A stretch of 36,987 nucleotides of DNA, taken from positions 1 through 36,987 of IMG/VR virus record IMGVR_UViG_3300008261_000641. One strand, 5' to 3'. A model generated the notes under the pieces. The model searched no databases. It was not told the DNA's origin and was given only the letters and a program-made list of their open reading frames with translations. Origin of the DNA: a virus. Below are positions 1,546 through 29,637 of this stretch, one piece after another; positions within the stretch are counted from its first letter, which is position 1; each line of letters opens with the position of its first letter. Made by a program: the position numbers and the translations under genes.

Positions 1546-1785
1546 TTATCCAATCATGATGCCAACGCTGTCCCCAGCAGAAGGCTCGTAGGTTACGCTG
1601 AAGTTATCAAAAGATGTTCCAGATCCAGGGCTGGCAGAGCCGAGACCCCCAAGGACAATCCCATGACCAACAGTAGTTAGATGATCTGTAAACGCTGAAG
1701 TGAGCACGCCAGTATCCGATACCGCCGTGGTCATTGCCGTGCTGGTATACCCAAGAACGCGATACGTGTTCCCAGAAGTGATCAC
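1546..1785 (-). CDS. C-terminal half of a lectin-like fibre domain, -1 frame relative to upstream gene
   Basis: This 79-residue frame starts with GTG inside the stop of the upstream gene (GTGA overlap). Its content, SGNTYRVLGYTSTAM...GIVLGG...SFDNFSVTYEPS, reads as the second half of a concanavalin/LamG-like beta sandwich. The ending FDNFSV is the usual last strand of such domains in phage fibres. The first half (DTFTRANTSTGTLG...GIAFWVENDTNFWMAW) is in the gene at 1782-2660. There is no Shine-Dalgarno of its own beyond coupling at the overlap. It is probably made by termination-reinitiation or by a frameshift as one polypeptide with its neighbour, or it is separated by an indel. Confidence 0.5.
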   Translation of the reverse strand: MITSGNTYRVLGYTSTAMTTAVSDTGVLTSAFTDHLTTVGHGIVLGGLGSASPGSGTSFDNFSVTYEPSAGDSVGIMIG

Positions 1786-2660
1786 CGGTCAACCCTTAGG
1801 TAGTACTCGTAGTCGTAGTTATTGTTCGTTGTGTAACCGCAGTTAATGCAGGCTGCGCTGTTGATCGTTGAGCCACCACCGCCAGAGCAGGTTGCTGCTG
1901 CGTTTTTATCCTCAGTCCATCCGCTGCATGTTACTGCGCAGTTTCGGTTTGTTCGGCTATTGTATCCACATGTGCTTGTACCGCACACTGGGCTGGTGTA
2001 GGTGCAAAGCGCAACGCCACAGGTTCGCTCTAGCGAAGATCCGCTGCATGAACTGACGCAGGAGGTCGACACGTTTGTGATCGTTCCGCATGTATTTGCC
2101 GTCGCGCAGTTTCTTGTTCGGTTTGTTCGGTTAACACAAGATCCACCACATGCAGAAACATAGGTAGTTGTCGTTGTTCCATTGCCGACATCGTTGCAGT
2201 TCCTGTTCCCTGTTGAGCAAGAGCCAGTTGTGCATGATGCGCAAGAAAGAGAAACGTTATTTCCAGTTCCAGTTGATGAGTTCTTTACCCCTCCGCTGTA
2301 TGTTCCGTTTCCAGTGCATCCTCCGCATGAGCATGATGTGCAACTATTGCAGGTGACCGTAGAACTGGCAAGGTACCTGTTAGATCGTAGCCATGCCATC
2401 CAGAAGTTTGTATCGTTCTCTACCCAGAAAGCAATCCCAGGTCCATTACCATTCAGAGTGTGCATCGAAATCTCAGCGTCCGCGACGTTCGTCATGACGT
2501 ATGCTGGAGAGTTCGTTGTTCCGTTGACCTCTGCAGTGTTGCTAATAACTGCCCAACTGCTTGGGTTCTGCCAAGCCAAAACCAATCCAGTTTCGGTAGA
2601 CCCAAGGGTCCCAGTCGAGGTATTAGCCCGCGTAAACGTATCCGAAACTGTAATTGGCAT
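1782..2660 (-). CDS. Fibre protein: split lectin-like domain with a 24-Cys repeat insertion
   Basis: This is a 292-residue protein. Residues ~5-92 are the first half of a concanavalin-like sandwich (SDTFTRANTSTGTLG, then GIAFWVENDTNFWMAWL). Residues ~93-270 are a low-complexity insertion rich in Cys (about 24), Asn, Ser and Thr. Its repeated blocks such as CGGSCVNRTNRTRNC and YNSRTNRNC resemble the CxxC-G...RxRxC pattern of thrombospondin type-1 repeats. The end (YEYYLRVDR) returns to the sandwich sequence, which continues in the -1 frame in the next gene. The start ATG overlaps the stop of the upstream fibre (TAATG). It probably sits at the distal tail and binds surface glycans; the Cys block may be disulfide- or metal-stabilised. 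Confidence 0.7.
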   Translation of the reverse strand: MPITVSDTFTRANTSTGTLGSTETGLVLAWQNPSSWAVISNTAEVNGTTNSPAYVMTNVADAEISMHTLNGNGPGIAFWVENDTNFWMAWLRSNRYLASSTVTCNSCTSCSCGGCTGNGTYSGGVKNSSTGTGNNVSLSCASCTTGSCSTGNRNCNDVGNGTTTTTYVSACGGSCVNRTNRTRNCATANTCGTITNVSTSCVSSCSGSSLERTCGVALCTYTSPVCGTSTCGYNSRTNRNCAVTCSGWTEDKNAAATCSGGGGSTINSAACINCGYTTNNNYDYEYYLRVDR

Positions 2661-4044: not shown

Positions 4045-4770
4045 TTATTTGAACTCCTTACGAGACCAGAAGAGTGTTTTGTAGGCGTTAAAGATCTTCG
4101 TGCTTAGTTTGTTAAAGACCTTATTGCCTTTCTCAATTTCCTCATTCCCGCCAATGCTCATCTCCCACGCATCTCGCTTAAATGGGATTACTTGCACCAT
4201 TGGCGTTCCTGCTGGGATCAACCCCGTAAAGTTGGGGTCTTCTAGGACAAACGGGAAATTAACCTCGTTTGTATACGTATCTGTATCTACAACTCCAGGC
4301 ATGCAGGTAAAGATGCCATTAGGGTTGTGCATCGGAGAGATGATAAGAACTGAATATCCATTTGGCGTTTCAATCATCCATGGATTCATCAGTTTTGGAA
4401 CGGTTTTATCTTTCTTGACCATCGGGTGGTGGACCGCCTGCCCGTTGTCATGACCGCTAACCTTAAAACTATTATGACGACCAACAAACTCCTGCTCGCC
4501 AGAATCTTCATTCATGCGAACCCAGATGTCTGCTGGAGTTACAAGGATATATCCAGCGGTAATTGCATCAAGTACTGGCACGCAACGCTTAATGGTTGCG
4601 TTAGGCTCCCCATGATGGGTGACAGCCTTTTCGTAGCCAGCATCTTTGCCCCTGCCATAGCCTCCATAGGCTTCCATTTTTACGTACCACTCAGGAAGGT
4701 TCTTATCGGATGGGCGCGGGTAAAACTCCTCATCCACCTCATACCTGGTCGTAAATTTAATGTTCTTCAT
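4045..4770 (-). CDS. Conserved phage protein of unknown function inside fibre cluster
   Basis: This 241-residue soluble protein is not fibre-like. It has motifs such as RPSDKNLPEWYVKM, TIKRCVPVLDAITAGYILVTPADIWV, NPWMIETPNGYSVLIISPMH, GVVDTDTYTNEVNFPFV and GTPMVQVIPFKRDAWEM. From memory these match a widespread uncharacterised family in tailed phages of aquatic bacteria (I believe DUF6065-type), often located among tail genes. The composition suggests a beta-rich, possibly cupin-like enzyme or a small-molecule binding fold, but no catalytic residues can be named with confidence. It starts with ATG after GGAG and its start overlaps the stop of the upstream fibre (TAATG), so it is translated with the fibres. 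Confidence 0.75.
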   Translation of the reverse strand: MKNIKFTTRYEVDEEFYPRPSDKNLPEWYVKMEAYGGYGRGKDAGYEKAVTHHGEPNATIKRCVPVLDAITAGYILVTPADIWVRMNEDSGEQEFVGRHNSFKVSGHDNGQAVHHPMVKKDKTVPKLMNPWMIETPNGYSVLIISPMHNPNGIFTCMPGVVDTDTYTNEVNFPFVLEDPNFTGLIPAGTPMVQVIPFKRDAWEMSIGGNEEIEKGNKVFNKLSTKIFNAYKTLFWSRKEFK

Positions 4771-6026
4771 TATGCTCCGCCTCCGTCTAGCGTAATATCG
4801 CCTAAAGTTGTCCAGGAAACGTTGGTTCCATCCGTCTTAAGGAATTCACCATTGTTGCCCGTCTGAACTGGGAGAAGGTTATTGATTGCCGATGACGCAG
4901 ATGTAGCGCCAGTTCCTCCGTGCTCGATTGCGATCGTAGATGCTTGCCATGTGCCAGTCGCCAGCGTTCCAACTGTCGTTAGAGACGATGACGTGACACC
5001 AGTGCCAAGCGCACTAGACGAAAGGACATCCGTTCCATTGATCTTGTAGGTAGATCCAGTAGGGATGTTCAGTGCTGAACTAGTTACGGCAAGCGCTTCA
5101 GCAGCGTTTACTGAGCCATTCGGCGCTACTTCGATCACGGCTTTTACGCCATGATTTGCATCGGTAAAGTTCTGATTGGCGTAGAAAACTAGCCTTCCAT
5201 CAGATGCTGAACTGAAACCAGTTTCTCCGTAGCCTCGTACCGTAAACTCGCCGAGGTTATCGCCGCTCTGAACCGCCGTCGGAGATGCGGCAGAACCGCG
5301 TGTCTTTCGGTTAGTATACGACGAGTGGACTCCGTTTCCATGCGTGTCGATTAGAATTCTTGTATTGAATCCATCCTCATTGACCGCATGCAGAACAGTG
5401 CCAAGAGCGCCGCTGGCGCTGATCGGAGTGCTGACGTTATTGTCAATGATAATCGAGCCGCCAACTTTTGGATCAGTAAGCGTCTTGTTTGTGACAGTCT
5501 GCGTGCCAGTCAGAGTAACCACCTGATCGTCGGCGACCCAGAGGCTGCCGTTCCACTTCAGGTATGTGCCAGAGGCGGCACCGTTGACCTGCACATCGTG
5601 CAACTCTTCAAGTTCGAAGCCGTTCTTGATCAGTACGAATACTTGACCAGCGCCAACAGATCCACCCTTGACGACGAAACCTACGGTCACGTTGTGCGTC
5701 GGAGCATATGGCTTTGTGGCTGTATACCCGCCAGCAGTTGTGCCAGATAGATATAGGTAGTCTCCGTCGGCGTAGGCTTGAGTATTGACGTTATTCAGAA
5801 TCCCGAACGTCGTCACATACCCGTCTGCGTTATTATTGATGTCGTTCTCAACCCAGCCAATTGTCTCGGCTGAGGTTCCGTCACCAGTAGCGATTGCTTT
5901 GGCAATCGTCGGCTTTTCCCCGTTTACCCCATTGAGATAAACGATTGACCCTTTGCCCGAACAGACTCGGCAATACCAGTCCCGCCACCTCCGCCCCCAC
6001 CGCCAGTGGCGGCGAGGTCGGTCCAT
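4770..6026 (-). CDS. Tail fibre, main C-terminal part (frame entered by -1 shift near 5948)
   Basis: From about 5947 downward this frame encodes SIVYLNGVNGEKPTIAKAIATG...NNADGYVTTFGILNNV...YLYLSGTTAGGYTATKPYAPTHNVTVGFVVKGG, a well-known fibre module. It continues with TQTVTNKTLTDPKVGG shaft repeats and a C-terminal region ending in SSAINNLLPVQTGNNGEFLKTDGTNVSWTTLG. The first 26 codons of the open frame (WRWGRRWRDWYCR type) are an out-of-frame translation of the Gly-rich linker of the gene at 5924-6148, so translation should not start here. It should enter from the upstream frame at the AAAGGGT heptamer (5948-5954), giving a protein of about 459 residues spanning 4770-6148. It is an adhesion fibre. 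Confidence 0.8.
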   Translation of the reverse strand: MDRPRRHWRWGRRWRDWYCRVCSGKGSIVYLNGVNGEKPTIAKAIATGDGTSAETIGWVENDINNNADGYVTTFGILNNVNTQAYADGDYLYLSGTTAGGYTATKPYAPTHNVTVGFVVKGGSVGAGQVFVLIKNGFELEELHDVQVNGAASGTYLKWNGSLWVADDQVVTLTGTQTVTNKTLTDPKVGGSIIIDNNVSTPISASGALGTVLHAVNEDGFNTRILIDTHGNGVHSSYTNRKTRGSAASPTAVQSGDNLGEFTVRGYGETGFSSASDGRLVFYANQNFTDANHGVKAVIEVAPNGSVNAAEALAVTSSALNIPTGSTYKINGTDVLSSSALGTGVTSSSLTTVGTLATGTWQASTIAIEHGGTGATSASSAINNLLPVQTGNNGEFLKTDGTNVSWTTLGDITLDGGGA

Positions 6027-6148
6027 GTTCCACCGATATACCCGTAAAGGATATTTGAGGTCGTATTGTAGTAAACGTCCCCGTTCTGCGCAGACCCTGG
6101 GGTCGACGAGTACTTAGGGACGTTTAGTGATGCTGTAAACTTGGGCAT
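5924..6148 (-). CDS. Tail fibre N-terminal module, zero frame of a frameshifted gene
   Basis: This 74-residue frame has an excellent start (AAAGGAGG, five-base spacer, ATG). It carries a fibre-type module VPKYSSTPGSAQNGDVYYNTTSNILYGYIGGTWTDL, followed by an eight-Gly linker and TGIAESVRAKG. The last seven residues before TAA (QSFISMG) do not fit the family, whereas the -1 frame continues with the expected SIVYLNGVNG sequence. The short form (74 residues) and the shifted form (about 459 residues) would share their N-terminus. Either this is programmed -1 frameshifting or a one-base error exists in the A3G3 run. Confidence 0.75.
   Translation of the reverse strand: MPKFTASLNVPKYSSTPGSAQNGDVYYNTTSNILYGYIGGTWTDLAATGGGGGGGGTGIAESVRAKGQSFISMG
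5948..5954 (-). other. Candidate -1 frameshift heptamer A AAG GGT in fibre gene
   Basis: In the zero frame of the 74-residue fibre ORF the codons GCA AAG GGT contain the canonical X XXY YYZ pattern (A AAG GGT). Re-pairing to AAA GGG leads directly into the long fibre frame without a stop. A perfect 7-bp stem with a four-base loop (CGATTGC / GCAATCG) lies at 5891-5908, about 39 bases downstream, which is further than usual for a stimulator. The zero-frame TAA lies about 18 bases after the heptamer. Confidence 0.5.
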
Positions 6149-10629: not shown

Positions 10630-13002
10630 CTAGTCTACCTCGATATAGTTAATGGTTGCTACCAAATGTCCGACAGGCTGGTACGAGAATTCTGGTGCGC
10701 CAAGGTAAACCTTGAGCACTGCTCCGTATGGGTCCTTAAGCCAGACTGGTGAATTAAATCCAAGGATCGTGTTTAGTTTAGCCAACTTTGCAGAGACCTC
10801 ATCTGAAGGGATGAATGCCTCAAACGATCCTTCTGAACCGTATCGGGCAGTTCGGACGACGACCTTGCGGTCTCGACCGAACGGCTCGAAGATTTCTTCT
10901 TGGAATGGGTTAGATCGATTTTCACTTTGAGCGTACAGTTCCACTGACAACGAGTAGTTGTCTGGCGGAACAATAAACCAGTTGTCTTCGTTTGAGGACG
11001 ATGTAACGACGATTGCCGTCAATGGGTTAGACCCAAGGATTGAGCCTCCGCCGTTATCTGAGTACTGCAAAACGCGATAATCGTATCGCTTGCTGACTCC
11101 AGACGAGTAATCGACGTAAGAAGTTGACGAGATCGATGCAACTTCTCCTAGGCTTGTCCACTCAAGGCTGCCGTAATCTCTTCGGAAGATTTCGTACTTA
11201 AGGAACAGGGCGTTAACCACTGCGTCCCAGCGCACGATAACCGATCCGTTTTCTGATGTCGCAGAAACTCCATCGACATCTGCAGGGGCAGTCCACGTAG
11301 CATTGTACGTGCTACTAGATACCGTCGGAGAGTCAACAAGTTCTGTATCTCGAGCGGTTACTTCAAACTTCAAACTCTGATCTTGCGTCAAATACCCTGT
11401 TGGGATTTGACCAGTTGGTGTCGACCCACTCGTTGCAGAAGAGACAACAAAGCCACTGTCGTACAAAACTGTACCAGCAGTTGCGTCCTTTGCAACGATC
11501 CTTCGTTGTGTTTGAGCCTTGCTTGCCGATCCAGTATATGCATACTGTACCGTTGGGTTAGGCTTGTTTACTGCGCCGCTCGTAAGGTCAGCCGCAATAG
11601 GCTGGACGGAAGCAACAGTTGGAGGATTTGTTGGTTTGAATACGCGATAAGAACTGTAGTCACCAGTATCATTTGCACCAGCGCCAGCGTTGTCCTTATA
11701 GCGTGCTCGGTATCGGTATTGAACATCTAGTGTTAGCGTTGACCCGCCAGCACCAGCCGTTACCGTTGAGTTTGCTTTGTTTAGACCGTTGGAAGTCACG
11801 CTAAGACCAGATGTCTTGGACAACGTGTACATTACCACCGAGTCTGAGACCCTGCTGACTTCCACTTCTAGGGATGTCGGCGAATCTGGAAGACCATACC
11901 CAAGATCTGGGTCTGAGAACTGGATATCAAACGTTGGGTCAAGCGATCCTACCGCAGCACCATCTGATGGTGAGAGCGGATTTGCGACAGGCTTGGAGTT
12001 CACATGGAACATCGCCTGAGCAGATTCTGCAAGCGGTTGACCATTGACTGTGGCTTGCACTGTCCAGAAATATCGGTTATCAAACTGTAGTGCCGTTGAA
12101 GCATAAACGTACGAGATGCTTGTCGCTGGCGTTGGACTTACTGGTCCAATCGTTGCGTACAGCGTTCCGCTTGTGTCGTATACCCTGATTGTGTACACGC
12201 TAATGTTTGACAGAGCCGTAAAGGTCAATGTTGGGGTTAGTGTCTTTACCCAGCCCGTGTTCGTGTCGTCGTTCGGAGTTGCGAGAGTTACTCCGCCAGC
12301 GAATGTCGAGAACGATGCTGAAGAAGAGACTGACGAAGAAAAGCCATAGGTATCCTTGGTTGTCGCCGTCCAGTAGTAGTTTGTTGCAGCAGTCAGTGTG
12401 ATACCGCAGGCTACGGCAAATGCACCGTTTGCTGCTAGCGTCACATCTGTGCTATCCCAAACAAGAGTTCCGTCTGTCGTGTAAACCTTTACGCGAACAG
12501 ATGCCACCCTATCCCCAGTATCCGTATCGCTTGACGTTCCAGTGAACGTTGGCGTTAAGGTACTCACGACAGAGCCGCCGCTAGGACTCAATCCACTTGG
12601 CTTTGATGGTCCAAGGTTGATATTGAACGTGTTAGTAGTGGTCGAGTAAGGACTCCACGCCCCTGCGCTATCCTGGGTCTTAACACGCCAGTAATAAGTC
12701 GAAAGCGGAGTCAGACCGTTTGCTCCTGCGTAGTAGTCGGCAATTGTTGAGGAATTACCGCCAACTCCAGATACCGTTTCCGTGAACGAAATCGTCGAGA
12801 AGTCGCTCGCTGCAGAAACATCGATCTGGTAGCCAGTGATGTAGTCGTTCAGGTCAGCGTCGTTCTGCGTAAAGTTAAAGGTTACGCCGCCGTCCTGCCG
12901 AGCATTCCCCGTCGGAGAATTCACGGTCGGCGCAGTAGGAGCGGTGTTTGTAGTGTAGGTAATATTCAGCGTTGGTCGCGAAGCGGCTATCGCTGGTTTC
13001 AT
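10630..13002 (-). CDS. Distal tail/baseplate protein with fibronectin-III/Ig-like repeats (main part)
   Basis: The real coding part begins near 12,979, preceded in another frame by the 12,875-13,516 ORF. It starts RPTLNITYTTNTAPTAPTVNSPTG, then carries several Fn3/Ig-like modules (ITGYQIDVSAASDF...LSTYYWRVKTQDSAGAWSPYS; GPSKPSGLSPSGGSVVSTLTPTFTGTS; further YFWTVQATVNGQ and YDYRVLQYSDNGG). The C-terminal ~130 residues (FEPFGRDRKVVVRTARYGSEGSFEAFIPS...NSPVWLKDPYGAVLKVYLGAPEF) resemble a distal-tail domain. There is no ribosome site at the nominal ATG at 13,002. Joined with the upstream ORF it would be about 960 residues. Its position directly after the tape measure fits a Dit-like baseplate protein with carbohydrate-binding decorations. 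Confidence 0.75.
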   Translation of the reverse strand: MKPAIAASRPTLNITYTTNTAPTAPTVNSPTGNARQDGGVTFNFTQNDADLNDYITGYQIDVSAASDFSTISFTETVSGVGGNSSTIADYYAGANGLTPLSTYYWRVKTQDSAGAWSPYSTTTNTFNINLGPSKPSGLSPSGGSVVSTLTPTFTGTSSDTDTGDRVASVRVKVYTTDGTLVWDSTDVTLAANGAFAVACGITLTAATNYYWTATTKDTYGFSSSVSSSASFSTFAGGVTLATPNDDTNTGWVKTLTPTLTFTALSNISVYTIRVYDTSGTLYATIGPVSPTPATSISYVYASTALQFDNRYFWTVQATVNGQPLAESAQAMFHVNSKPVANPLSPSDGAAVGSLDPTFDIQFSDPDLGYGLPDSPTSLEVEVSRVSDSVVMYTLSKTSGLSVTSNGLNKANSTVTAGAGGSTLTLDVQYRYRARYKDNAGAGANDTGDYSSYRVFKPTNPPTVASVQPIAADLTSGAVNKPNPTVQYAYTGSASKAQTQRRIVAKDATAGTVLYDSGFVVSSATSGSTPTGQIPTGYLTQDQSLKFEVTARDTELVDSPTVSSSTYNATWTAPADVDGVSATSENGSVIVRWDAVVNALFLKYEIFRRDYGSLEWTSLGEVASISSTSYVDYSSGVSKRYDYRVLQYSDNGGGSILGSNPLTAIVVTSSSNEDNWFIVPPDNYSLSVELYAQSENRSNPFQEEIFEPFGRDRKVVVRTARYGSEGSFEAFIPSDEVSAKLAKLNTILGFNSPVWLKDPYGAVLKVYLGAPEFSYQPVGHLVATINYIEVD

Positions 13003-13516
13003 TGCTTACGTAAAGAATGAAGCCATTATTGGTAGCCCCGCCGAACCAAGACCTTACCTGATTGGTAACGTCCACCGTCACAGTGGTAGGTCGAGTCCCG
13101 CTTACTGATACCGAGGTCTGGTCGCTAGTGTCGTAGTCGGTCCCAGCGGTATCGTGCTTATTGTAGTTGTTATAAGTATTATTGACGTACTGAGTCCAGT
13201 TGTTTTCCGCGCCAGCGTCCTCAGTCCAAGGGACAAGGCTGCGTGCAACATTAAGAGTCTTTGTGCTCGTACCCCAACTGTTATGTGCAGGGCTTGTAGT
13301 AGTAGTGAGCACGAGCGAAGCGCTTGTAATGCTGGCAATACCAGTGAACGAGATAGGGAAGTAAATCAGTGATCGGAAGCGATATGCTCCGTCACCTGCG
13401 TTTCCAACAGGATGGTGCTGGTCAAAACCGTTCCAGTCGGAAGCGAGAATTGTCCCTGATGCTCCACCTGCAAGTGTGCTCGCGTCTTTCGTGCTCTTAA
13501 GTGAAATGGTTGCCAT
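12875..13516 (-). CDS. N-terminal DNRLRE/CBM96-like domain of the same baseplate protein
   Basis: GAGAGG precedes an ATG at 13,516. Residues ~1-180 (LKSTKDASTL, YRFRSLIYFPISFTGIASITSASLVLTTT, TLNVARSLVPWTEDAGAENNWTQY, VTVDVTNQVRSWFGGATNNGFILYVSNETSDSRF) match the DNRLRE/CBM96-type carbohydrate-binding sandwich found in surface proteins. This family normally ends with a strand like RPxLxVxY. Here that strand (RPTLNITY) is in the +1 frame, in the downstream ORF starting at 13,002. The last ~30 codons here (EYYLHYKHRSYCADREF to the stop at 12,875) are therefore out of frame and not meaningful. It is one gene with the downstream ORF, interrupted by a +1 shift at about 12,979. Confidence 0.7.
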   Translation of the reverse strand: MATISLKSTKDASTLAGGASGTILASDWNGFDQHHPVGNAGDGAYRFRSLIYFPISFTGIASITSASLVLTTTTSPAHNSWGTSTKTLNVARSLVPWTEDAGAENNWTQYVNNTYNNYNKHDTAGTDYDTSDQTSVSVSGTRPTTVTVDVTNQVRSWFGGATNNGFILYVSNETSDSRFATNAEYYLHYKHRSYCADREFSDGECSAGRRRNL

Positions 13517-19370: not shown

Positions 19371-20369
19371 TCAGGCAATGCCAGCGGCAGCGCCAGTCTT
19401 CGTGTTCACGAGCGTGACAGTGGCGATGTCGCCGCTGACAGGCTTGAGCACGGTGCATTCAACATCCTGCGAGATGAAGTCGCCAGCCGAAAGCGGAACG
19501 CCTACGGTGCGGTACTTGACTCGTGGGAGATTGACCACAAGGCTGTGGTAGGTGGTTCCGCCGATGAGAGGACCACGGAACGTCAACTCAACAGCGAACT
19601 CGCTGTCGTTGAGAAGTCGGTCGTACTCAGTCCCATCCTGGAAGTCCATGCTCATTGAGAGCGTGATCTCTCGAGCGCCCATCGCCACGCGGCTGTAGCC
19701 ACGGGTCTGGCGAAGCGTACCAATGTGCTCCACATTGTTGTTGACCGAAAGCGTTACGTCCTTGACGATGGCGCTATCCGAGCCGCCGATCGAAACCTTG
19801 GCTCCATTGAAGTGGAACGGGTTGACCGAGACCGCTGCGTAAGCAGGGGTCAGCGGGGTCGCTGGGGAGATGCGCTGACGGTTAGTACCGTCAAGACCGA
19901 TAGAAGCGGTCACGATCTCGCCGTATGAAGCGCGCAGTTCGAGCGTGTTCACGCGAACACCTGAGTACTGCATCTGGAGTGCGCCAGTCGATCCGCCGTC
20001 AGTACCAGCAGCGTACGTTTCAAACGTAAGCGTTGGCGAGGCGTTTCCTGGCGTGAAGACGTGGCTGTACGAACCGCTTGCACCAGAGGTGCTTGCGCTC
20101 GAGGCAGCAAAAGCCGACTTCAAGAGGAGTTCAACGTCCTCTGAGACCAGTGGCATTTCGAGCGAGCCGTTCACAACGAACGGTGCAGGAAGCGCGAGCG
20201 TCATGTCGCGCGAGCCACGAATGGTCATTGGTGAGAGATAGTCGTTAGTGTCGTCGAATGATACGCTGGTAGCGGCAAGGAACTTATCTGGGGTAACGAA
20301 CGTACCCTCAGTGGTCTCCTTACCGAACACGACGTAACCAAGTGCGCCGACTCCGATGTTATTAGCCAT
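19371..20369 (-). CDS. Major tail (tube) protein
   Basis: This 332-residue protein has the tail-tube pattern GYVVFGKETTEGTFVTPDKFLAATSVSFDDTNDYLSPMTIRGSRDM. It continues with VVNGSLEMPLVSEDVELLLKSAF, TLTFETYAAGTDG, SGVRVNTLELRASYGEIVTASIGLDG and VSIGGSDSAIVKDVTLSVNNNVEHI. This is the phage tail tube (Phage_tube_2-like) fold that polymerises as hexamer rings around the tape measure. It lies between the terminator-like connector gene and the chaperones. It probably has high expression, because the only hairpin with a U-tract in the late module follows the chaperones just downstream. GGAG precedes ATG. Confidence 0.9.
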   Translation of the reverse strand: MANNIGVGALGYVVFGKETTEGTFVTPDKFLAATSVSFDDTNDYLSPMTIRGSRDMTLALPAPFVVNGSLEMPLVSEDVELLLKSAFAASSASTSGASGSYSHVFTPGNASPTLTFETYAAGTDGGSTGALQMQYSGVRVNTLELRASYGEIVTASIGLDGTNRQRISPATPLTPAYAAVSVNPFHFNGAKVSIGGSDSAIVKDVTLSVNNNVEHIGTLRQTRGYSRVAMGAREITLSMSMDFQDGTEYDRLLNDSEFAVELTFRGPLIGGTTYHSLVVNLPRVKYRTVGVPLSAGDFISQDVECTVLKPVSGDIATVTLVNTKTGAAAGIA

Positions 20370-20389
20370 GGCTATTTATTCTCCATATC

Positions 20390-20860
20390 TTATCGGGCAA
20401 AGCCCTTTGAAATCATCAGGCTTACCCTGCCTGTCTTGACGATCGCGTTTCCGCGTGGCTCGACATCATATGTCGTATCGAGCACTACCGTGTCGATAAC
20501 GAGACCGTCGAGTTGCCGCTTGTCTTGCTGCCTAAACCACCGCGCGATGAGTTCTGCAGCCTGAACCAAGATCCTGTCACCAATCGCCTCCGAAGAGTCG
20601 AGTTCAAAAAACTGGCGTGCATCGATCATGAGCAGAATGTCCACATTTAAGGACCTGCGATCGTACCCAGTTGTCTCTGCGTCTGGTGACTCAGACTTTG
20701 GTTCCACAATAATTGCTGGCATCAGGCTCTGTGGGATGACTCCAGGGTCACCGAAGTACACATCCTTTACCTCCAGAACATCAGAGATGCCATTAGATGT
20801 TCGAGGAAGAGCGATCATCGCCTTAATTTCTGCGATGAGTCGATCAATTACTTGTTCCAT
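20390..20860 (-). CDS. Tail terminator / head-tail joining protein
   Basis: This 156-residue protein starts at ATG 20,860, eight residues inside the longest open frame, because AGGAGG lies four bases before it and an upstream TTG has none. The sequence (VIDRLIAEIKAMIAL, PQSLMPAIIVEPKSESPDAETTGYDRRSLNVDILLMIDAR, DGLVIDTVVLDTTYDVEPRGNAIVKTGRVSLMI) has the alternating alpha/beta pattern of siphophage tail terminators (gpU-like) that cap the tube. It overlaps the upstream virion morphogenesis gene, whose TAG stop lies just upstream of this gene's ribosome site, and is followed by the tail tube gene. The assignment rests on gene order as much as sequence. Confidence 0.7.
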   Translation of the reverse strand: MEQVIDRLIAEIKAMIALPRTSNGISDVLEVKDVYFGDPGVIPQSLMPAIIVEPKSESPDAETTGYDRRSLNVDILLMIDARQFFELDSSEAIGDRILVQAAELIARWFRQQDKRQLDGLVIDTVVLDTTYDVEPRGNAIVKTGRVSLMISKGFAR

Positions 20861-20868
20861 GTTCCCTC

Positions 20869-21759
20869 CTAGGCGCGATGCCAAGCCTTACCGCTGCGGA
20901 GGAATCTCTCCTCAACAGTTTCAATGTTATCTTGGTTCAGCACGATGCTATTGAGAACTGATTTCTTAATAGCACTTCCGATGAACTTGTAACCTTGACT
21001 CGACTTATTCTTGATATCGCCAATCGGATAGAACTTTCGCGGAGGGACTGGGCGAGCGCCCTGACCCCATACCGACGAAATGTAACCATATTGGTGTAGC
21101 GCCTTCCACGAACCCGCACCAGGCGAAAGGTCCATTCGGAAAGAAGCCATTCTTGTTTCTTTGTTGCCGCTGATTGCCATAAGAACTTTTAGTTTGATCT
21201 TGTCGGCAGCAGCCTCAGTCTTAAAACTCGAGTTGCTTTCGTGGCGAATTCCTTCTCCGCCCCTGCTCTTTTCTCCAGTGACCACGCTTTTCAGCGCGCC
21301 AGTGTTTCGAAGAATGTGGTCGTAACCACGAGTAGGCAAATAGGCTCCACCAGCAGCAACTTTGCTTTCACCGTCCGTTCTGGACCTTCGACCCTTTAGG
21401 GTTTGCAGGCTTTTAGATGGACGGATCTGATTTGCGGTAGCAGCAGTAAGGCGTTGCCATTTCTGACCGCCATATGCGCCTTCTGTCTTGAACTGCTGCT
21501 TGGCAAACTCGTACATGCCCTTCTCGACGTTCTTAAAGATTGAGGCATATCGGCGAGAATATCCAGCAGTTCTCCTACGCTGGTTAATCATGTTGTCAGC
21601 AATAACCGTCAGCGTTTCGACTTTGATGTCTAGCGTTACAGACGGCAGTCTCCTGTCGGCAAGAGAAGCCATAGGGATCATTCGCCCACGAGGAGTAATC
21701 GCGTAAACAACTTTTGACCTAGCAAAGATTCGCTTTGTCGTTTGAGGTGAGCGCATCAT
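20869..21759 (-). CDS. Virion morphogenesis / tail completion protein (Mu gpG or P2 gpS-like)
   Basis: This is a 296-residue basic protein. The central part QFKTEGAYGGQKWQRLTAATANQI, then GYDHILRNTGALKSVV, then ALHQYGYISSVWGQGARPVPPRKFYPIGD is the hallmark of the phage virion morphogenesis (tail completion) family: a YG...W..L....., an I LRxTGxLxxS element, HQxG and P.R.F. The N-terminal ~90 residues (RRLPSVTLDIKVETLTVIADNMI) are an additional helical region. It lies between the head-tail connector and the terminator, as expected for the neck. It ends with TAG. Confidence 0.8.
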   Translation of the reverse strand: MMRSPQTTKRIFARSKVVYAITPRGRMIPMASLADRRLPSVTLDIKVETLTVIADNMINQRRRTAGYSRRYASIFKNVEKGMYEFAKQQFKTEGAYGGQKWQRLTAATANQIRPSKSLQTLKGRRSRTDGESKVAAGGAYLPTRGYDHILRNTGALKSVVTGEKSRGGEGIRHESNSSFKTEAAADKIKLKVLMAISGNKETRMASFRMDLSPGAGSWKALHQYGYISSVWGQGARPVPPRKFYPIGDIKNKSSQGYKFIGSAIKKSVLNSIVLNQDNIETVEERFLRSGKAWHRA

Positions 21760-22346: not shown

Positions 22347-22472
22347 CTACGAAGACGTGTGAATGCAGCGCTTGAAGATGGCTCGGCGTTTACCGCCAAG
22401 GTCTAGCGACTTATTGCGCTGAAGAACCGCTTTCTTGAGCAGGCTCTTGTTCCGAGCGAAGGGTCGAGCCAT
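22347..22472 (-). CDS. 41-residue basic protein overlapping the glycosyltransferase 3-prime end
   Basis: An ATG at 22,472 follows a strong AAGGGAGG with a six-base spacer inside the glycosyltransferase gene. The frame reads MARPFARNKSLLKKAVLQRN to TAG at 22,347, overlapping the upstream gene by 62 bases in a different frame. The peptide contains a duplicated RNKSL and is highly basic (at least 13 Arg/Lys/His), suggesting nucleic-acid or capsid-interior binding. The ribosome site, and the fact that it fills the otherwise empty gap before the connector gene, argue for a real gene. I do not recognise a family. Confidence 0.6.
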   Translation of the reverse strand: MARPFARNKSLLKKAVLQRNKSLDLGGKRRAIFKRCIHTSS

Positions 22473-23616
22473 TGAAAGCCTCCCTTAGATATTCTTGATA
22501 GTTGTCCCAAGTAAGTTCTTTTGCACGCTCAATGCCCTTCTTGGACATGATGGCGCGGCGCTCTGCGCTCTTTCGAAGTCGGCTAATCTCGTCAGCAATG
22601 ACGGATGGCTTGATGTTGGCGTATCTGCTATGGCTTTTGTTAATCACCCAGTCATTGACCTGCAATCTAACACCAGCATTGCCGATTACCTCAGCCCCTG
22701 CGCCGTAGTTCGTATGCATCACGGGAAGACCGCACGCCATTGCCTCAGCCAAAGGAAGACCAAAGCCTTCCACCTGTGAGGGCAGGACAAATACGTCTGC
22801 CATGTTATAGAGATCAACAAGACCAGGCTTGTTGACTCCGCGCAGTTCAATCGCGTCGTTGTGACGCTTATGATCTGGCGGGAAGAATACTCGGTCGGAG
22901 ATCCCCATCTCTACCGCAAGTTGCGGGAGATTGTGTCCGCCGAGGTAGTAGTTGTTAAACGGAACTGTATGTGCATACAGGATAACGTCTTTGTACTTGC
23001 TCGAGATAATACTGATCGCCTCGAACAAACGTCCCCATTGCTTTCGCTCGACGTTCTGTGCTACGCACATGACGACGAACTTATCGTTCCAGCCTACGGC
23101 ATAGCGCTTGGCATCTCGCTCATCCGCACTCATTGGTGCGAAGTCGCTCGAAACCCCATGGTACGCCATCTTCGCATTCAGACCCGCTGCCTTTAGGATC
23201 TCCACGCCGTAGTTTGAGCACGTGATTAGATTGAGCCTTGGTGTCTGACTTAGAACGTCGACCCACTGCTGATTCAGCGGAGCGCCCTCGACGGGCATGT
23301 ACGCCGTGATCGGAAGTTGGTACAGATTCTTTTTGAGAAGCCATGCTGTCACCGTTGCTGGATCGCCAATGATGTGGACTGCCTCAGGAGCATGCTCCTC
23401 AACGACCTCATCTACTAGCGTCCATCCAATCGAGTCAATAGCCTGATTCTTGATCGGGAAGAACTTACCACCAGGGATTTCCCTTTGGGCTGTGTCCTGT
23501 CCGCCGATGACGAGCAACTCATGACCCGCATCGAGCAATTCTTTGTAGGCAACGGAATTGACGATACCGAAGCCAGTTTTAATAAACGGGGAATCACCAA
23601 GCATCAGGATTTTCAT
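22411..23616 (-). CDS. GT4-type (GT-B fold) glycosyltransferase in the head-gene cluster
   Basis: This 401-residue protein starts at ATG 23,616, chosen because GAGG lies six bases upstream; an ATG nine codons earlier overlaps the previous gene. The N-terminal Rossmann-like part (MKILMLGDSPFIKTGFGIV, then PITAYMPVEG, SNYGVEILKAAGL) is joined to a C-terminal nucleotide-sugar-binding domain (FVVMCVAQNVERKQW, LVDLYNMADVFVLPSQVEGFGLPLAEAMACGLPVM). The EX7E retaining signature is E283...E291. No membrane segment is seen. Genes of this type between capsid and connector genes may glycosylate virion proteins or host surface sugars; the substrate is unknown. Confidence 0.9.
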   Translation of the reverse strand: MKILMLGDSPFIKTGFGIVNSVAYKELLDAGHELLVIGGQDTAQREIPGGKFFPIKNQAIDSIGWTLVDEVVEEHAPEAVHIIGDPATVTAWLLKKNLYQLPITAYMPVEGAPLNQQWVDVLSQTPRLNLITCSNYGVEILKAAGLNAKMAYHGVSSDFAPMSADERDAKRYAVGWNDKFVVMCVAQNVERKQWGRLFEAISIISSKYKDVILYAHTVPFNNYYLGGHNLPQLAVEMGISDRVFFPPDHKRHNDAIELRGVNKPGLVDLYNMADVFVLPSQVEGFGLPLAEAMACGLPVMHTNYGAGAEVIGNAGVRLQVNDWVINKSHSRYANIKPSVIADEISRLRKSAERRAIMSKKGIERAKELTWDNYQEYLREAFNGSTLRSEQEPAQESGSSAQ

Positions 23617-23617
23617 G

Positions 23618-23833
23618 TCAGTCCTCGACGATCTCGTAGCCATTCATGCGCATGCGGTTGACCCAGTGCGGCTTATCCGCAGGGATCACTGCTACGCTAT
23701 TCACAACTTCAACTTCACCGTCGTAGAAATACTCGGTGCAGTTGATATCAGACGAAACTTCATGCTTCATCTTGACATCTTTTGGCTCGCCATCGAGTCG
23801 AGAGATCGAAGGTTCTACTCGCTTAGGCATCAT
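23618..23833 (-). CDS. Small protein downstream of major capsid gene, function unknown
   Basis: This 71-residue protein has AAAGGAGG just before two adjacent ATG codons (23,833 and 23,830). The sequence PSISRLDGEPKDVKMKHEVSSDINCTEYFYDGEVEVVNSVAVIPADKPHWVNRMRMNGYEIVED is mixed alpha/beta with a C-terminal acidic end. Small proteins at this site are common in phages and include capsid decoration or stabilising proteins, but there is no recognisable family here. It follows hairpins after the capsid gene and its TGA overlaps the context of the glycosyltransferase start. Confidence 0.65.
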   Translation of the reverse strand: MMPKRVEPSISRLDGEPKDVKMKHEVSSDINCTEYFYDGEVEVVNSVAVIPADKPHWVNRMRMNGYEIVED

Positions 23834-28215: not shown

Positions 28216-28407
28216 TCACCAAGCAAAGTTAATCGCTGGTGATTTTCGCCCGACTCCGTAGAGTGCGAGCATCGCGGACCAGTAATAGTCGTCGTGCTCG
28301 TTGTCGCGCGCTCGGAACAAGTAGTTCCCAGCCTCTGACTTACGACGCTCGATGGAGTGGATCTCATGGAGCAGGTCGCGATGCCGAGGCATACGGATCT
28401 TGCCAGT
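28216..28407 (-). other. In-frame continuation of terminase large subunit beyond TAG
   Basis: After TAG at 28,408-28,410 the same frame stays open for 63 codons: TGKIRMPRHRDLLHEIHSIE, then NYLFRARDNEHDDYYWSAML and ALYGVGRKSPAINFAW to TGA at 28,216. This is typical terminase C-terminal sequence, including the acidic DNEHDD..YWSAMLAL segment that supplies the third carboxylate of the RNase H-like nuclease. There is no ribosome site for separate translation. It must belong to the terminase, reached by read-through, or be separated by an amber mutation or a sequence error. Confidence 0.75.
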
Positions 28408-29637
28408 CTAGAGATCACTCTTGAAAGACGTTGCCCAGTTTTCTTTGAGCGCTTGCGTGAAGACCACAGACTCGACGATTCCCCCATGGGAAGCGACGAG
28501 CCGCTCGGCGATCACCGCGCCAACGCCAGTAGCGTCGACCGTGACTCGCAAGGGCTTCAGGTCAGCAATCAATTTCTCGAAAAACTGGACCTGCTTCTCG
28601 TAGTCGTCCTGTGTCTCGAAGGTCTTCACGATCGTCTTTACGCCAGTCTCCTCATCGAGGTGAGCGACGGTGACAACGGTCTTGTCTACCTTCTTGGCAA
28701 GGTCGATGCCGATACAGTACTTGAGCGACGGGTCGTACGGCTTGCCCAGGAGTTCGTCATCGACGTTTTGGACGATGAGACCCCACGGGTAGAAGTTGAC
28801 CGACTCGTCGGCGAACGAGCACTCATACTCCTGTCGGAAGGAGTCGATGCCCATGTTGTTAAAGATTGACTTGATCGAATCAGTTCCCCAACGGTTGACC
28901 CGTTCAGGTGTGTCGTAATCGGCTGCTAGCGCCGTGCTCTCTGCGGGGTCGATCGACATGATCGAGCACTCCCACCATGGGACGACGTGAACTGAGTACT
29001 CGGGGTATCGAGCACGGTCGTTAGCGATCTCAAAAAACAAGCCGCTCTGTCCGAGGGGCGTTGATACGATCGTGAGCCGTGAGTCGCCGCGAGTTGTCGC
29101 AGGAATCGCTGCATCGTAGAGTTTCCGAGCGTCACGAATGAACGCGAACTCATCGAAATAGACATCCTTCTCACCACCGCGCACGGCTGAAGACGCAGGC
29201 TGCGAAATCAGGTATGAGGTGTCTGGGTGGTTATGGAGGCTAAATTCGAACTCCGCCGACGTGTAAATCGGCGCTCGGAATCCCGATAGTTCAGGGATAG
29301 AGAAGTAGAATTGCTTGGCATAGTTAACTTTGTCTGATGCCTCTTTCTGGTTGATCGAGACGTAGTTAACCTTCTTGGAGCGGTTTGTGAGGATGCGGTG
29401 AAGCCCCTCGCCAGAGATGATGTAGGAGAAGCCGATCTGTCGCGACTTGGCGACGATACGGAACTTACTCTTGTCGTTCAGGAACCGAATCTGATACGGC
29501 TCCAGTTTCGTCGGCATCCCCTTGGTCTCCGTCAGGAGTTCTAGGAAGAGCGACGGAGACTCCTTCAATAGGGCTGCCAACTGCTCCCGAGAGGGTTGCG
29601 AGCCGTGCAGGGTCAATTCCTCTGGATTCAAATACAT
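28408..29637 (-). CDS. Terminase large subunit (ATPase and most of nuclease), interrupted by TAG
   Basis: The 409 residues before TAG include an adenine-motif region LEPYQIRFL, a deviant Walker A AKSRQIGFS (63-71, like Mu gp28-type terminases), Walker B DVYFDEF (158-164), the coupling motif IVSTPLG and the first two nuclease Asp segments CIGIDLAKKVD (D312) and VTVDATGVG (D368). The third nuclease segment lies after the TAG (28,216-28,407), so the full protein would be 473 residues. The start at 29,637 has no Shine-Dalgarno; MPTKLEPYQ (29,517), with GGAG upstream, is an alternative. It overlaps the small-subunit-like gene by 173 bases. It packages DNA into proheads with the portal. Confidence 0.9.
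   Translation of the reverse strand: MYLNPEELTLHGSQPSREQLAALLKESPSLFLELLTETKGMPTKLEPYQIRFLNDKSKFRIVAKSRQIGFSYIISGEGLHRILTNRSKKVNYVSINQKEASDKVNYAKQFYFSIPELSGFRAPIYTSAEFEFSLHNHPDTSYLISQPASSAVRGGEKDVYFDEFAFIRDARKLYDAAIPATTRGDSRLTIVSTPLGQSGLFFEIANDRARYPEYSVHVVPWWECSIMSIDPAESTALAADYDTPERVNRWGTDSIKSIFNNMGIDSFRQEYECSFADESVNFYPWGLIVQNVDDELLGKPYDPSLKYCIGIDLAKKVDKTVVTVAHLDEETGVKTIVKTFETQDDYEKQVQFFEKLIADLKPLRVTVDATGVGAVIAERLVASHGGIVESVVFTQALKENWATSFKSDL

Follow-up and report, generated by a model that had tools for sequence, protein, structure and literature searches.

An in-frame TAG private to one metagenomic phage contig interrupts its large terminase gene

Results and discussion

The DNA analyzed here (the window) is the 36,987-base sequence of a virus record, and its large terminase (TerL) gene, on the minus strand at 28216..29637, is interrupted by an in-frame TAG at codon 410 (28408..28410). 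This TAG very probably reflects a private C-to-T change, very recent in origin, in an invariant glutamine codon (CAG), and not an evolved recoding signal. The TAG itself is present in the sequence, but it marks no recoded or evolved feature. The terminase gene is otherwise normal, and the TAG would represent either an error in a base or in the assembly, or a recent allele that is probably defective.

The window is probably a fragment of a genome, because related records run to 57 kb. The terminase lies in a late module on the minus strand that includes genes for the large terminase, portal, protease, major capsid, glycosyltransferase, head-tail adaptor, tail terminator, tape measure and tail proteins, with a 189-aa gene of no assigned family directly upstream of the terminase. 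The glycosyltransferase gene (Glycos_transf_1; 22411-23643, minus strand) lies within the cluster of head genes, flanked by the capsid gene and the head-tail adaptor gene, a position that is kept in the relatives.

The terminase and its interrupted nuclease domain

The terminase gene starts with an ATG at 29637 and encodes 409 aa as it stands, or 473 codons if read through. After the TAG the frame remains open for 63 codons (28219..28407) up to a TGA (28216..28218), which is the authentic terminase stop; in the relatives the corresponding codon is TAA, TAG or TGA. When read through, the protein has a match to Terminase_6N (4e-14), and its residues 309-459 show a weak match to Terminase_6C (3e-4) that falls just below the curated cut-off. 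Both the ATPase and the RNase H-like nuclease domains of a large terminase are thus present, the former with the ATPase-like motifs KSRQIG (residues 64-69) and VYFDEF (residues 159-164). Residues 296-458 match the nuclease of Thermus phage G20c (PDB 5m1f/5m1q), an alignment that spans the stop. In this alignment D312, D368 and H448-D449-D450 correspond to G20c D294, D347 and H427-D428-D429, the last of these through the segment DNEHDDYYW of the 63-codon tail, which aligns with the G20c nuclease residues H427/D428/D429 (PMC5389553). The original prediction, that the TAG splits the large terminase and is followed by 63 genuine terminase codons, is therefore upheld by sequence, profile and structure matches.

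The window gene differs from the G20c terminase in that its frame is interrupted ahead of the last metal ligand. The three acidic metal-binding positions are intact within one frame in all relatives, whereas in the window D312 and D368 precede the stop and D450 follows it; the window terminase belongs to the large-terminase family, but its copy of the gene is either broken or misread. In a predicted model of the read-through protein, which is of low confidence overall (mean pLDDT 48.5) and better in the nuclease domain, a helix within that domain ends at residue 410. If the TAG is present in real DNA, the 409-residue product would keep the ATPase and two of the three catalytic carboxylates (D312 and D368) and would lack the third, D450, along with H448 and D449. 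Such a product should have no nuclease activity and be unable to cut DNA, because the RuvC-like site has its last metal ligand beyond the stop; the earlier expectation that the nuclease would lack its third acidic segment unless the TAG were read through agrees with this placement. A genome carrying a real TAG should then be defective unless complemented or suppressed.

Codon 410 and the tail in related terminases

Codon 410 was compared across 17 related terminases in viral contigs, which are 68-99% identical. All 17 have CAG or CAA at this codon and no internal stop, making Q410 an invariant alignment column, and the stop is therefore a private CAG-to-TAG transition. The conservation of a stop that would be expected of programmed read-through was seen in 0 of the 17. 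Searches with exact and degenerate DNA patterns returned no second contig carrying the TAG, and no relatives were found in bacterial genome contigs.

All 63 residues of the tail are identical in three relatives, and the tail differs from that of each of these nearest relatives by 16-20 synonymous changes and by no amino acid, indicating that it was under purifying selection until very recently. Seven changes private to the window follow the stop, all of them synonymous. As the tail has accumulated synonymous differences but no amino acid differences, the change at codon 410 is either very recent or not real. Against the same three relatives, 53 sites are private to the window, and the C-to-T change at codon 410 is the sole nonsense change among them. 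On a wider scale, 2,873 aligned conserved positions contain no drastic private change other than Q410*. The window has 19 private changes at conserved sites, compared to 20-21 in two relatives, and since this is no excess, base errors are not widespread in the contig as judged from its conserved genes. A contig-wide excess of base errors was accordingly rejected as an explanation.

A separate observation concerns the 83-kb record IMGVR_UViG_3300027608_000021 (G008; loci L011, L013 and L042-L046), which contains two differing copies of the terminase and its neighbouring late genes, at 19925-21346 and 75242-76663. This points to an assembly that is chimeric or was joined from two related phages.

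Other frame-broken genes and the origin of the TAG

Three tail-region genes that are single frames in relatives are each split into two frames in the window, with apparent deletions of which none is a multiple of three. The first (1549-2660, minus strand) is a single frame of 386-398 aa in two relatives (G005 and G007); ~85 nt are apparently missing near 1,785, and the resulting frames in the window share a GTGA overlap. No closer relatives of this 1.8-kb junction were found. The second (4770-6148, minus strand), a tail gene, lacks 34 nt near 5,950 with respect to the type found in two contigs (G004 type), and the gap adjoins a glycine-coding G-rich run. The third (10630-13516, minus strand) corresponds to a frame of 990-1000 aa in relatives and lacks 38 nt near 13,000 with respect to its 990-codon counterpart at locus L050. 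These deletions are judged against only moderately similar relatives and lie in variable tail genes, where the frame splits may be partly natural.

We lean slightly toward an artefact or low-coverage variant over a real defective allele as the source of the TAG, because a lethal allele would not be expected as the consensus of an essential gene and because the three other frame-broken genes occur in the same contig. The lack of excess private changes at conserved sites weighs on the other side. Of the three options offered by the original prediction, an inactivating mutation and a base error both stand, amber suppression is improbable, and recoding finds no positive support.

Alternative explanations

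The alternative that survives best is a real amber allele tolerated by way of a natural UAG suppressor of the host (e.g., a Gln-inserting tRNA), so that full-length terminase is still made; we regard this as improbable. It would accord with the unchanged amino acid sequence of the tail in comparison to the near relatives, and with the glutamine codon being a single base from TAG, such that insertion of glutamine restores the wild type. Bacterial genes with in-frame stops and apparent read-through have also been described, including a TAG/CAG case (PMC7918605) that resembles the terminase in its CAG/TAG alternation at one alignment position and its conserved tail, but the window stop occurs in one contig only, leaving its persistence unsupported. 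The use of TAG in the window also argues against suppression, as 10 of the 35 catalogued genes end in TAG as a normal terminator; the five gene ends named previously (10,630; 18,686; 20,869; 21,762; 26,628) are all real TAG stops. A suppressor tRNA with a CTA anticodon had been suggested as something to look for, but no tRNA gene of any kind was found in the window, whose genome is probably incomplete, or in seven relatives, among which is a 57-kb record; suppression borne by the host would not be visible from a phage contig. Moreover, no relative shares the stop, and amber suppression cannot explain any of the three out-of-frame deletions. The stronger proposition, that the amber is real and that survival of the phage, including genome cutting and packaging, depends on UAG suppression by an uncultured host, is less probable again.

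A split terminase, in which translation ends at codon 410 and re-initiates at M415 to yield a separate nuclease tail working in trans, is very unlikely. The required ATG is present five codons beyond the TAG, but no convincing ribosome-binding site precedes it, none of the relatives has a split at this point, and the stop is predicted by the structural model to fall inside the nuclease domain.

Genome-wide reassignment of TAG to glutamine, of the kind found in some crAss-like and Lak phages, is excluded by the data, in line with the earlier judgment that it was unlikely: like TAG-reassigned phages (crAss-like, phAss-1 and Lak; PMC10607447, PMC8346664), the window does have a late gene with an in-frame TAG, at a glutamine position, but here the TAG is single, with no further in-frame TAG seen in conserved genes of the window where a code 15 type would have it recur, TAG is not avoided as a terminator (orthologous genes end in TAA or TGA in 14 comparisons with window TAG ends and in TAG in 13), no suppressor tRNA accompanies it, and coding density with TAG as sense (0.912) gains no more than with TGA as sense (0.911).

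With no stop in any relative, no phage suppressor tRNA and no other in-frame TAG, recoding as an evolved feature is unsupported by the sequences compared, and a private, very recent change of the CAG codon is the preferred explanation.

Implications

The TAG at codon 410 is of little importance in itself. Annotation of this contig will nevertheless give a truncated terminase that is absent from its relatives, and recoding should be invoked for a single in-frame stop in one metagenomic contig only after comparison with relatives.
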